Of a stretch of DNA of 40,097 nucleotides, positions 14,425-17,079 are shown piece by piece (position 1 is the first letter of the stretch; each line of letters starts with the position of its first letter). Origin of the DNA: Bacteroidaceae bacterium (lineage in GTDB: Bacteria > Bacteroidota > Bacteroidia > Bacteroidales > Bacteroidaceae). The translations under genes were made by a program, and so were the position numbers. A model generated the notes under the pieces. That model worked only from the letters and a program-made list of their open reading frames with translations, was not told the origin of the DNA and searched no databases. The DNA is taken from assembly GCA_017444485.1 (NCBI GenBank), contig JAFSWM010000069.1, positions 1-40,097 of the forward strand, written 5' to 3'.

Positions 14425-14554
14425 GAATTGAAGGACGAGGCGCAAGCCGAGGTTGTTGTTGCGGTTGTCGGGCGTGTTGTTGTTCCGATTCGAAGCACGA
14501 CAGTTCTGCGGGTTGTTGTTCCAGCTACCGCCACGGTTCACGCGGTTCGAACCC
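14425..14554 (-). repeat. DGR template repeat (TR)
   Basis: 130 bp, ungapped match to the VR at 16186-16315 (offset 1761). In the VR frame it would encode a peptide rich in Asn: SWNNNPQN, NRNNNTPDN and RNNNLGL, that is, a series of AAC codons. AAC codons are the hallmark of DGR templates because randomising the first two adenines gives NNC codons, which cover 15 amino acids and no stops. It differs from the VR at 16 positions and every one is an adenine in the TR coding strand. It starts 38 nt after the RT stop codon. The adenine-free 3' end (CTCGGCTTGCGCCTCGTCCT, coding strand) is the likely initiation-of-mutagenic-homology region. Confidence 0.96.
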
Positions 14555-14592
14555 ATCGGGTGAGTTCCAAACATTCAGATACTTTGATGTAT

Positions 14593-15576
14593 CTACAGAC
14601 TTTCGTTCAATTCAAAGGCGCGGGCCTGCGCTTTGGCCGTAAAGGCACGGAGAGCTTGTACACGACGCCCATATGTAGTAAGGCTTATCTCTCCAAGGTC
14701 CATCGCGAGGCGCAATTTGGCCATCTTTATCCTATAACGATGGCGACTACGCTGATTGAGCCGCAAGCCACGCGCACGAACCACATATCCACAAAAAGGA
14801 ATGCCAAGCGATGTTCTGTTGAAAACAGGTGGATGCATCTCTAGCCTCAAGCTACAATTTACAAACGATACATAGTTTCGAATTAGCTCCAATAAGCTCT
14901 TCCGTTCCAGTCCAAAGAACAGCACGTCATCCATATATCGAACCATAGCAGGCGCATGCAACTGACGCATAGCATAGTGATCTGCGACAGCCAAATAGTG
15001 ATTGGCAAAATATTGGCTGGTAAGATTACCTATGGGCAATCCACGTCCGATATTTACCTCGTATGTTCCAAGCAATTGCTTAAATATACAAAGCAAAACT
15101 TGGTCTTTGAATAAAGAAGACAGAAGAGAAATGAGTATGTCGTGGTTGATCGTGTCGAAATAGTGGCGTACATCAAGTTTGGCATACCAATCGTAACATC
15201 TGCAGAGCATCATGGCCTTGTCAATGGCTGCATAAGTGCCTTTTCCTATACGTGAGGCAAAACTGTGAGGCATCTGATAGGCTTCGAATACAGGATGGCA
15301 AACACGCATAATGGCATGCATGGCAACACGCTGATCAAAAGGGGCTGCACAGATCAGACGTTCTTTGGGATCAAAGACTTTGAAAGTATGATAGCCTCCA
15401 AAACGAAAAGATCCGTTGGCTAGTTCCACTGCCATTCTATTGAGATTATCCCATAAATTATCCCTGAAAGCCATTACCTCGCGCCGTCCATGTTTACCAC
15501 GCGCAGCACGAAGAAATGCGATGGCTAGATTATGCGGCTCACAGATAAGTGGCATGAGATTTCCAGCACGTTTCAT
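14593..15576 (-). CDS. DGR-type reverse transcriptase
   Basis: Copies the TR transcript into cDNA with adenine-specific errors during mutagenic retrohoming. 327 residues, typical of compact DGR RTs with no maturase or endonuclease domain. Seen: fingers motif FKVFDPKERLICAAPFDQRV (about 65-84), YAKLDVRHYFDTINH (palm Asp, about 130-145), I182-G-N-L-T-S187-Q188, the [I/L/V]GxxxSQ motif that marks DGR RTs where retroviral and group II RTs have QGxxxSP, and the catalytic YMDD at 214-217. The start codon overlaps the stop of the HRDC gene (ATGA), implying coupled translation. The gene is visibly richer in A/T than its neighbours. Confidence 0.96.
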   Translation of the reverse strand: MKRAGNLMPLICEPHNLAIAFLRAARGKHGRREVMAFRDNLWDNLNRMAVELANGSFRFGGYHTFKVFDPKERLICAAPFDQRVAMHAIMRVCHPVFEAYQMPHSFASRIGKGTYAAIDKAMMLCRCYDWYAKLDVRHYFDTINHDILISLLSSLFKDQVLLCIFKQLLGTYEVNIGRGLPIGNLTSQYFANHYLAVADHYAMRQLHAPAMVRYMDDVLFFGLERKSLLELIRNYVSFVNCSLRLEMHPPVFNRTSLGIPFCGYVVRARGLRLNQRSRHRYRIKMAKLRLAMDLGEISLTTYGRRVQALRAFTAKAQARAFELNESL

Positions 15577-16061
15577 GTTTCTGAGTTTAAGTTATTATCA
15601 GCCATAAACTTCTCCACGGCATCATCGGTGAAATACTGACCATAGAGGTTCACGCGCTCTACTTGAATTCCTGAAAGTGTGCCGATGTTTTCCATGTTCA
15701 ATGGTTGTGTTTCTGTTAGAATCTTTAGTTCCTTGTCGCTAAACACATGATAAGCTGCAGGGAGTTTCCTTTGCTGAAAAATGGAGTAGCGTATCTTTTT
15801 CAGCAAGTCAAATCTAGTATGCAATGCTTCTGGCAATTCGGCACGGACGTCGCGGCGAGTTGATGACGAGGAGTTTCTGCGAACCTGCGGATCTTCAAGA
15901 ACTGATCCCTCAATATATTCTACAAGGAATTCCCATGCAGAAGTGCTTTCATTATAATGCTTATCCACACGTGTGACACGGTGTGTGCGCAAAAATTTGT
16001 TGTATTCGTCAAGCAATGCATTCCCACCAGTGGAAGGGATTGAAACGATGTAATACTGCAT
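15573..16061 (-). CDS. HRDC-domain DGR accessory protein
   Basis: 162 residues. Residues about 80-155 form an HRDC (helicase and RNase D C-terminal) domain: FDLLKKIRYSIFQQRKLPAA, then VFSDKELKILTETQPLNMEN and IGTLSGIQVERVNLYGQYF, with the alternating helices of this nucleic-acid-binding fold. The N-terminal part (LLDEYNKFLRTHRVTRVDKH, then AWEFLVEYIEG) is a second small domain. DGRs usually encode Avd, a four-helix protein that binds the RT; a minority of described systems carry an HRDC protein instead, and its position between target and RT with a 4-bp overlap supports an RT-partner role. Its action on TR RNA or DNA is inferred. Confidence 0.85.
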   Translation of the reverse strand: MQYYIVSIPSTGGNALLDEYNKFLRTHRVTRVDKHYNESTSAWEFLVEYIEGSVLEDPQVRRNSSSSTRRDVRAELPEALHTRFDLLKKIRYSIFQQRKLPAAYHVFSDKELKILTETQPLNMENIGTLSGIQVERVNLYGQYFTDDAVEKFMADNNLNSET

Positions 16062-16093
16062 TATGGCTGTGGATTAACGAATGATTTTATTAC

Positions 16094-16166
16094 GCTGGTC
16101 TTAGCCTCTACTCTCCGGCGGCCCTTTTAGAATTTTGGGCCGCCTGCAAGTAGAGGCTAAGCCAGC
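16094..16166 (-). terminator. Long hairpin just downstream of the VR
   Basis: Inverted repeat with outer arms GCTGG/CCAGC (16094-16098 and 16162-16166), middle arms CTTAGCCTCTACT/AGTAGAGGCTAAG (16100-16112 and 16149-16161) and inner arms GGCGGCCC/GGGCCGCC (16117-16124 and 16137-16144), around a T/A-rich loop. It lies 20 bp beyond the 3' end of the VR and 14 bp after the target stop codon. It may terminate the target transcript; in the Bordetella phage DGR a hairpin/cruciform at the corresponding place stimulates retrohoming, so a DGR role is plausible. Confidence 0.75.
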
Positions 16167-16179
16167 TTATTGAGTTTAT

Positions 16180-17079
16180 TTATGGGAACTGAAGGACGAG
16201 GCGCAAGCCGAGGTAGTCGTAGCGGTCGTCGGGCGCGTTGAAGTCCCGATTCGAAGCACGACAGCCCTGCGGGAAGTAGCCCCAGCTACCGCCACGGTTC
16301 ACGCGGTTCGAACCCGAGGTAGGACCTTGCGGGTTGTTCTGAAACGCAGTGGGATAGGAGCCATACCAATCCTGACACCACTCCCACACGTTGCCTGTCA
16401 TGTCGTGGATTCCTAATTCGTTGGCCCGCTTCATGCCTACGGGATGGGTGCGTGAGCCGCTGTTACCGTTGTACCACGCCACGTCCTCGATGTTGTTCGA
16501 GCCGCTGTAGAGATACCCGTTGCTGCGTGTGCCGCCACGTGCTGCGAACTCCCATTCGGCCTCCGTGGGAAGGCGGAAGCGGGCCTGCGCCAGTTCGGGA
16601 GCGATCTGCGTGCGCTTGGCGTTGAGGCGGCTCACAAACTCCTGGCAGTCGTTCCAAGAGACTGTCTCCACCGGCAGATTAGCGCCTTTCCAATAGCTGG
16701 GATTGCTGCCCATCACCCATTCCCACTGCTCCTGCGTCACCTCGAACGTGCCGATCAAGTAGCCAGAGACGCCCACCTGATGGCGCGTCTCATCGCTGTC
16801 TGCCTGAGAGTCGTTGGGGAGATTGCCCATTGTGAAGGTGCCGCCCTCTACGTCGCGAAACGGCCAGTTGGGTACGCCGTTTTGCCCGCCAAGCCACACC
16901 GTGCCGTTGGCATCGCAGGGCAGGCAGACACCGCCCTGCACCCTGCGGAGCGTCAAGACCTCGGGGGCGCGCAGCGATGCCGTCGCCCACACCGGCTGCC
17001 ACAAGGAAGCGGGCGCGGCATGGCATGGGAACAGCGCCGAGAGCGAGAGTAGAAGGAGGGAAAACAAATGCTTTGTCAT
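16180..17079 (-). CDS. DGR target protein: secreted FGE-like / C-type-lectin-fold protein
   Basis: 299 residues. A signal peptide (MTKHLFSLLLLSLSALFPCHA) is followed by about 50 residues of unknown type and then a formylglycine-generating-enzyme-like (SUMF1) domain, about 75-298: GGTFTMGN, FEVTQEQWEWVMG, PVETVSWNDCQEFVSRLN, RFRLPTEAEWEFAARGG, GNVWEWCQDWYGSY and RVNRGGSW, ending LGLRLVLQF. The VR covers residues 256-298. The catalytic cysteine pair that true FGEs carry just after GGS[W/Y] is absent; variable residues 267-269 and 272 occupy that region. This makes it a ligand-binding display scaffold rather than an enzyme, as in other DGR targets with this fold. It has no clear lipobox, so it may be periplasmic or exported. 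The ligand is unknown. Confidence 0.94.
   Translation of the reverse strand: MTKHLFSLLLLSLSALFPCHAAPASLWQPVWATASLRAPEVLTLRRVQGGVCLPCDANGTVWLGGQNGVPNWPFRDVEGGTFTMGNLPNDSQADSDETRHQVGVSGYLIGTFEVTQEQWEWVMGSNPSYWKGANLPVETVSWNDCQEFVSRLNAKRTQIAPELAQARFRLPTEAEWEFAARGGTRSNGYLYSGSNNIEDVAWYNGNSGSRTHPVGMKRANELGIHDMTGNVWEWCQDWYGSYPTAFQNNPQGPTSGSNRVNRGGSWGYFPQGCRASNRDFNAPDDRYDYLGLRLVLQFP
16186..16315 (-). repeat. DGR variable repeat (VR)
   Basis: The last 43 codons of the target gene (residues 256-298). Compared with the TR, 15 substitutions alter 11 codons: residues 267-269 (NNN to GYF), 272 (N to G), 279-280 (NN to DF), 282 (T to A), 285 (N to D) and 287-289 (NNN to YDY); one more, A to G, is silent in Gln297. 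Seven changes are A to T and nine A to G on the coding strand. Non-adenine positions are identical throughout. The 3' end, up to the stop, is constant. Confidence 0.96.

Follow-up and report, generated by a model that had tools for sequence, protein, structure and literature searches.

A diversity-generating retroelement with an HRDC-type accessory gene in a Bacteroidaceae genome and a predicted structured RNA adjoining its template repeat

A stretch of 40,097 nucleotides from a Bacteroidaceae bacterium (assembly GCA_017444485.1, contig JAFSWM010000069.1; the whole stretch is called the window here) contains a reverse transcriptase (RT) gene lying between two similar repeats, and raises the questions of whether these parts form a diversity-generating retroelement (DGR) and how its template repeat (TR) would be copied. 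Outside the Bordetella phage DGR, the start of cDNA synthesis is, to our knowledge, an open question. Judged from its sequence, the cassette is a DGR of known kind, complete in its parts, and it is a cellular DGR with an HRDC-type accessory gene and a chromosomal target. The part that goes beyond the descriptions we found is an RNA element directly 3' of TR. We consider it likely, with a probability of roughly 0.8, that the RT and the HRDC protein copy TR into adenine-mutated cDNA which replaces the variable repeat (VR) of two genes encoding FGE-domain proteins, one of them in trans, and that the 3' RNA docks the complex and primes the copying.

Repeats, reverse transcriptase and accessory gene

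The gene order on the minus strand is target, accessory gene, RT and TR (Table 1). A preliminary description of this DNA, made from the letters alone, had proposed a complete DGR, and the RT, the accessory gene, the TR, an adenine-biased VR and an FGE target were all found to be present. TR (14554 to 14425) and VR1 (16315 to 16186), both read on the minus strand, align without gaps over 130 bp and differ at 16 positions, all of them TR adenines (nine A to G and seven A to T), and this recomputation reproduced the earlier figures. TR has 34 adenines in its 130 bases, and the probability that 16 randomly placed differences all hit an adenine is 1.8e-11. Fifteen of the differences are spread over 11 codons, ten AAC and one ACG, which bears out the description of these codons as nearly all AAC; the 16th (TR 14428, VR 16189) is a CAA/CAG difference that leaves the amino acid unchanged. 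The earlier count of eleven AAC codons in the hypervariable part is correct for the VR1-varied part of TR, where ten of them are changed in VR1, but the changeable set is wider.

This wider set is seen in a second variable repeat. Three TR-like places were found in the bacterium's own genome: TR, VR1 and VR2, the last on contig C41. VR2 differs from TR at 21 positions, 20 of them TR adenines (12 A to G, six A to T and two A to C), and alters two AAC codons upstream of the VR1-varied range, so that no fewer than 13 AAC codons can vary. The non-adenine positions are identical to TR in 96 of 96 cases in VR1 and 95 of 96 in VR2. At the sequence level, VR1 lies at the C-terminus of a C-type-lectin-like (FGE) target of 299 amino acids, as in DGRs, and VR2 ends a 273-aa FGE protein (locus L151, 16926-17747), which makes the latter an in-trans FGE target in a genome assembled into 115 contigs. 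The 299-aa target has a hydrophobic N-terminus that resembles, by eye, a signal peptide, and the best-matching solved structure for this protein is the variable protein 1 of Treponema denticola (2y3c, E 8.6e-37). The VR2 protein is a predicted lipoprotein, with a lipoprotein-like start in which, by eye, LSAC precedes a cysteine-rich start.

The same bias was found in relatives. We fetched 79 loci with related RTs, whose best RT segments are 41-55% identical, and detected their repeats irrespective of base, with no adenine criterion. This gave 139 candidate TR/VR pairs in 71 loci. A filter on TR position, length and score, blind to base identity, retained 85 pairs in 65 loci; exclusion of the window pair left 84 pairs in 64 other loci for the base count. 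Across these, 1386 of 2783 TR adenines (49.8%) are changed in VR, compared with 152 of 8325 other bases (1.8%), and the adenine changes comprise 595 A to G, 578 A to T and 213 A to C. The preliminary description had named two patterns that would speak against it. One, non-adenine differences as common as adenine ones, is contradicted by these percentages; the other, loss of the RT active site, is not seen in the window, where the RT is uninterrupted and YMDD present.

At the 3' end of the stretch shared by TR and VR, 70 of the 84 relatives' pairs (55 of 64 loci) show AGC in TR and AGT in VR. The remaining pairs are seven with AGT in VR but another TR triplet, and seven with neither; when VR was shifted by 7, 13 or -9 bases as a control, the same pattern appeared in 13 of 255 trials (window included). 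In the window, TR has AAT and both VR1 and VR2 have AGT. In the light of the relatives' pattern, the 16th change (14428/16189) therefore looks like a fixed donor/recipient difference, and it is probably better read as a fixed boundary mark of the site for initiation of mutagenic homing (IMH*/IMH) than as a mutagenic event; mutagenic changes would then number 15 in VR1 and 19 in VR2. Independent A-to-G events in both VRs could also account for it. As to the earlier claim that the cassette has been active on this lineage, past mutagenic homing is supported, but one of the 16 differences adduced for it is probably this boundary mark.

DGR-clade RTs are recognized by the motifs IGNxxSQ and YMDD, and the RT of the window shows an RVT_1 match together with IGNLTSQ and YMDD in its translation. 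Among solved structures its best match is 8ub7 (E 4.9e-31), which we take to be the Bordetella enzyme. The bacterium's own genome has a single RT of this kind, and no close RT was found in 57 other genomes of the genus (best E 1.1e-19, 28% identity). The accessory gene overlaps the start of the RT gene by four bases, and a frame ending near the RT start is present in 78 of 80 loci, window included. An alignment of 43 of these 78 accessory proteins, picked by hand, was scanned, and HRDC is present in 43 of 43; since the window protein also has HRDC, the cassette is therefore assigned to the HRDC-type DGRs. The preliminary description had correctly placed the RT, with its two motifs, and an accessory gene between TR and VR; it had missed the HRDC identity, the in-trans target and the 3' RNA. 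Likewise, its interval of 14425 to 17079 encloses the core parts but leaves out the RNA element (14262-14423) and VR2 on C41. A phage origin was considered and rejected: a scan of viral contigs gave no relative, and 136 phage records were matched, all below 60% identity, their RTs being 30-35% identical in eight rows among the matches listed.

A predicted structured RNA element 3' of the template repeat

The sequence directly 3' of the relatives' TRs carries common motifs, and in the window the order is GAACAG, a hairpin P2 (about 14370-14345), GGCAAAT, a stem P3 and a T-rich stretch. P3 is a long stem, in which 14326-14317 is paired with 14282-14273, and encloses AGTA and GAA. In an alignment of 28 loci, GAACAG, GUA and GAA show little or no variation, and a structure of 27 pairs shows 91.8% of paired cells, compared with 76.0% in shuffles. 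In this structure 24 pairs are changed on both sides, against 14.0 in shuffles (115 such cells against 33.2), and the covariation score is 0.513, against 0.227 when shuffled and at most 0.148 when slid. RNAalifold alone gave 17 pairs, 15 with double changes, and two further hairpins covary besides P3. The window element itself folds better than its own shuffles (z -3.55). In many relatives the element also has a pair of hairpins whose GGAT loops resemble each other (AGCCGGATGGCT and GAGCCGGATAGCC; columns 14-25 and 125-139 of alignment A2), and the pair could perhaps serve as two binding sites for one protein.

Three RNA models, R1, R2 and R3, were used in searches. With 28 of the 79 relatives as its training set, R1 matched 40 of the 51 held-out loci at E ≤0.0014; many of the held-out loci are close to the training ones (Chlorobiaceae), hence their high scores. 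In 30 other loci (217 kb) used as control, the best match had 12.5 bits (E 0.11). Every one of the 41 full-length matches follows an AAC-rich repeat (at least eight AAC per 150 nt; random control mean 2.6), and in the five that are not 100-260 nt past the RT end the element still follows a TR. R2, trained on R1 matches (57 sequences), was then tried on the nine rumen loci still unmatched, where it found six at E ≤0.04 and one more at E 3, with nothing up to E 5 in 15 control loci, and its alignment has a covariation of 0.679 compared with 0.219 shuffled; a weak R2 match in L070 (9231-9344, 15.3 bits) was dropped by a repeat search with stricter limits. R3, made of 15 sequences from R2 matches in 18 loci with the window excluded (covariation 0.623 compared with 0.165 shuffled), recovered L035, L042 and, on the minus strand of the window, the stretch 14423-14262 (25.1 bits, E 0.0012); no other match scored above 17.0 bits (E 0.14). 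Full scoring of R3 over the whole window gave E 2.2e-4 for the element and E 2.7 for the next match. Altogether, 76 of the 79 relatives were matched by some model, training loci and R2 matches up to E 0.04 included.

When R2 was run over 393 genomes of the order, it gave 20 matches in 16 genomes; 16 of the 20 lie 147-527 nt downstream of a same-strand RT, two have RT pieces upstream (L189 and L190), and two directly follow, by eye, an AAC-rich repeat (L191, and L192 near a contig start). A search for RTs in 393 genomes drawn in the same way found 30 RT places in 23 genomes (E ≤1e-35), and 14 of these, the window among them, had no match in the genome scan. Searched singly with R2, L186, L187 and L188 gave E 7.8e-4 to 2.4e-7, L193 gave 9.7e-4 and L198 0.0039; partial matches were weak in L195 (E 0.06), L197 (0.27) and L196 (0.74), and L194, L199, L200, L201 and L202 gave nothing with R2 up to E 1. 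With R3, L193 reached E 1.4e-5 and others 0.06-0.8. In L191 (G143:C180, 3351-3518), a TR-like AAC-rich repeat is followed by the RNA element and an RT was not found in 5.5 kb, so this locus is a candidate orphan template.

At the gathering score, Rfam 15 had no match to the element in the window or in 16 of the 79 relatives; the one match in these relatives, DUF805b in L066, lies outside the element. Furthermore, no earlier description of such an RNA element was found in the literature searched, which lay mostly outside preprints and subscription papers and was available in part.

Proposed mechanism and competing explanations

In the mechanism that we propose, the TR transcript would be copied by the RT and the HRDC protein into adenine-mutated cDNA, and this cDNA would replace the VR of two FGE genes, one adjacent and the other in trans. 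The 3' RNA, with P2, GGCAAA and P3 with its AGUA/GAA, would dock the RT-HRDC complex and set the end at which the cDNA starts. Homing would begin at the 3' end shared by TR and VR, where CAATT in TR as opposed to CAGTT in VR would keep TR from being a recipient, and NNC codons would diversify the ligand-facing C-terminal tips of two FGE proteins, both predicted to be exported to the surface. Because of its position, its conservation and its attachment to TR, the RNA element probably recruits the RT and primes the cDNA by analogy with the Bordetella spacer; P3 and the T-rich tail may also end the transcript. More generally, we lean towards the view that the templates of HRDC-type DGRs carry a deeply conserved RNA domain at the 3' side, hitherto undescribed, which travels with TR and acts as a docking and cDNA-priming platform. 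It would be the counterpart of the Bordetella spacer and perhaps distantly related to it.

Several results weigh against this interpretation. Some concern the RNA: the ordinary R1 and R2 searches left the window element unreported, and in a 501-base stretch of the window it scored 6.4 bits with R1 and 8.8 bits with R2, in the right place and strand. Double-change pairs were 24 in the R2 alignment compared with 22.9 in shuffles (165 of 500 shuffles reach 24) and 20 in the R3 alignment compared with 16.7 (14 of 500 reach 20), and both alignments (A4 and A7) are fitted to the model's structure. L040, L084 and L101 were unmatched by R1-R3; the L101 contig ends 54 bases past the RT match, and L084 is without a TR there. 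R2 found no match in L200, L201 and L202 despite their HRDC-like accessory frames, so the element is not recognizable in every HRDC-type DGR. Homology with the BPP-1 spacer was not upheld either, as no model matched in the BPP-1 record AY029185. Others concern the repeats: the single non-adenine difference of VR2 is a G-to-T change at its first base, and the TR/VR pattern supports past mutagenic homing and would not record present activity.

The 3' RNA could instead be only a transcription terminator at the operon end, its covariation coming from terminator stems, with no role in reverse transcription. We regard this as doubtful, though it is the most serious of the competing explanations: both the window and many relatives have a strong P3 stem with a T-rich stretch behind it, and the cassette ends there, but a terminator would not need the near-invariant unpaired GAACAG, GUA and GAA or two more covarying hairpins. 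Moreover, five held-out matches have TR and the element away from the RT end, and in L055 and L193 both lie upstream of the accessory gene. It is less probable still, and in our opinion unlikely, that the cassette is a silent relic whose differences record past homing by an RT or template no longer working. The evidence comes from one genome only, and VR1 and VR2 share the boundary base and the stop context, as old copies would; against a relic, the RT and accessory frames are uninterrupted, and the near-complete identity of both VRs with TR at non-adenine positions (96/96 and 95/96) argues for recent copying. That TR and the VRs are ordinary FGE paralogues, or pieces of them, diverged by common mutation with no retrohoming is hardly credible. 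FGE domains are indeed common in the genome, and FGE genes of two genus relatives (G018 and G021) match TR DNA at 69-74%; those genes, as ordinary divergence predicts, differ at 19 to 24 of 96 non-adenine positions too, whereas the differences of VR1 fall on TR adenines only, at the probability given above, and a DGR-type RT lies between TR and VR1.

Under the mechanism proposed here, the concrete testable part is the covariation-supported RNA domain on the TR of HRDC-type DGRs in Bacteroidota, Chlorobiaceae and a few other phyla. If it holds, the element offers detection of templates without an RT, including orphan templates such as G143:C180. The AGC/AGT mark would tell donor from recipient copies, and corrects the counts of adenine changes at the 3' edge. 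In addition, the window adds a system encoded by a cell, with one adjacent target and one in trans, whose diversification could be tracked in reads.

Known systems, hairpins and surroundings of the cassette

Table 1. Features of the cassette and its surroundings (window coordinates unless a contig is given).
Feature	Position	Strand	Details
Template repeat (TR)	14425..14554	-	130 bp, 34 A; repeat detection and base-by-base alignment
Structured RNA element directly 3' of TR	14262..14423	-	Model R3 match
TR boundary base (candidate IMH*)	14428	-	CAATT in TR, CAGTT in both VRs
Reverse transcriptase, 327 aa	14593..15576	-	IGNLTSQ and YMDD, uninterrupted; RVT_1 43.9 bits
Accessory gene, 162 aa, HRDC domain	15573..16061	-	PF00570 25.4 bits, cut-off 23.8
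Long inverted repeat, candidate target hairpin	16100..16161	.	25-nt arms, 12-nt loop; 24 bp past VR1 end
Variable repeat VR1	16186..16315	-	Boundary base 16189
Target gene, 299 aa, FGE-sulfatase domain	16180..17079	-	PF03781 161.9 bits
Ser/Thr protein kinase adjoining TR	12217..14121	-	PF00069 110.4 bits; possible partner, outside the DGR count
Dispersed repeat copies flanking the kinase-DGR block	12113-12209 and 17125-17186		47 matches in genome
Variable repeat VR2	contig C41 18611-18740		In trans; end of 273-aa FGE gene

The nearest parallel in the literature is the T. denticola TvpA-type DGRs, for which PMC4891356 describes an HRDC accessory gene overlapping the RT, FGE target proteins of which many are lipoproteins, and some targets remote from the core cassette, features that the window system shares in its HRDC accessory overlapping the RT, its FGE targets and its target away from the cassette. 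The near-identical 3' ends of TR and VR, with few differences read as IMH*/IMH, are also common to both. They differ in that the T. denticola accessory gene lies between TR and RT, whereas the TR of the window comes after the RT, and in the number of targets, two to seven there and two in the window genome (same source). TR also comes after the RT in most relatives with a found pair; the order is a matter of arrangement and does not define the wider group.

The DGR of Bordetella phage BPP-1 (PMC3240598 and PMC12875486) shares adenine mutagenesis and a structured RNA 3' of TR with the window system, and the two RTs are homologous, as the 8ub7 match indicates; the BPP-1 spacer is folded, brings in bRT-Avd and provides the adenine used for priming (PMC12875486). 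On the same sources, BPP-1 has Avd as accessory and a phage tail protein as target, compared with HRDC and a chromosomal target in the window, and its TR is before the RT (also AY029185) instead of after it. By eye, the BPP-1 locus (L203, 2743-2886, minus strand) shows a hairpin and then GGCAAAA, like P2 here, though R3 did not match it. The DGRs of rumen Prevotella and Bacteroidaceae (L034-L044) resemble the window system in their RTs, 50-55% identical, in the order target, HRDC, RT and TR in most cases, and in a rumen form of the RNA element; their elements have mostly AGTAG/CGAA where the window has AGTAA/TGAA, and the target of L035 is a kinase-FGE fusion.

Target hairpins of the BPP-1 type have a GC-rich stem of 7-10 bp and a GRNA tetraloop, 4-34 bp after VR. 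The inverted repeat downstream of VR1 (DNA fold z -8.45) is much longer than this type, and the hairpin after VR2 (stem 8 bp, loop 5 nt) lies in a region whose fold is not significant (z -1.62). A hairpin after VR throughout the family was rejected: the mean longest perfect stem is 4.6 bp after VRs and 4.9 bp after TRs, compared with 4.2 and 4.4 in mononucleotide shuffles, and stems of at least 7 bp follow four of 62 VRs and two of 62 TRs (primary pairs, window included).

Besides TR, the bacterium's own genome has seven full FGE domains and one fragment. Four FGE matches in G018 and G021 differ from TR at 15 to 22 of its 34 adenines, compared with 19 to 24 of the 96 other positions, an adenine-skewed divergence seen although a close DGR-type RT was not found in either genome.

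Homologues of the kinase adjoining TR were found in five of the 79 relatives' loci, and lie within the target frame in L035 and L058; five loci are too few to count the kinase as part of the DGR, and a fixed partnership was rejected. The L035 target (5452-7449), from a rumen Prevotella, is a protein of 665 aa that begins with a kinase domain and ends with an FGE domain. FGE and Ser/Thr kinase domains also go together elsewhere in the genus: they share one frame in G018 (L148, C16) and G021 (L150, C101) and are neighbours in G035 (L152, C8). In the bacterium's own genome, contig C23 has kinase and FGE both in 554-aa frames, and C26 is a further contig with a kinase fused to or beside an FGE domain. 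The order of the genes at 17183-24219 is kept in three genus relatives (G018, G035 and G051), and a search of about 7.5 kb beside this conserved block in the three gave neither a kinase nor an FGE match. Mobilization of the 12.1-17.2 kb region by its flanking repeats was set aside, the repeat being dispersed. Finally, a tandem array with a 14-bp unit (ATTGACCATTGAAC-like) lies at 12000-12095, upstream of the dispersed repeat.

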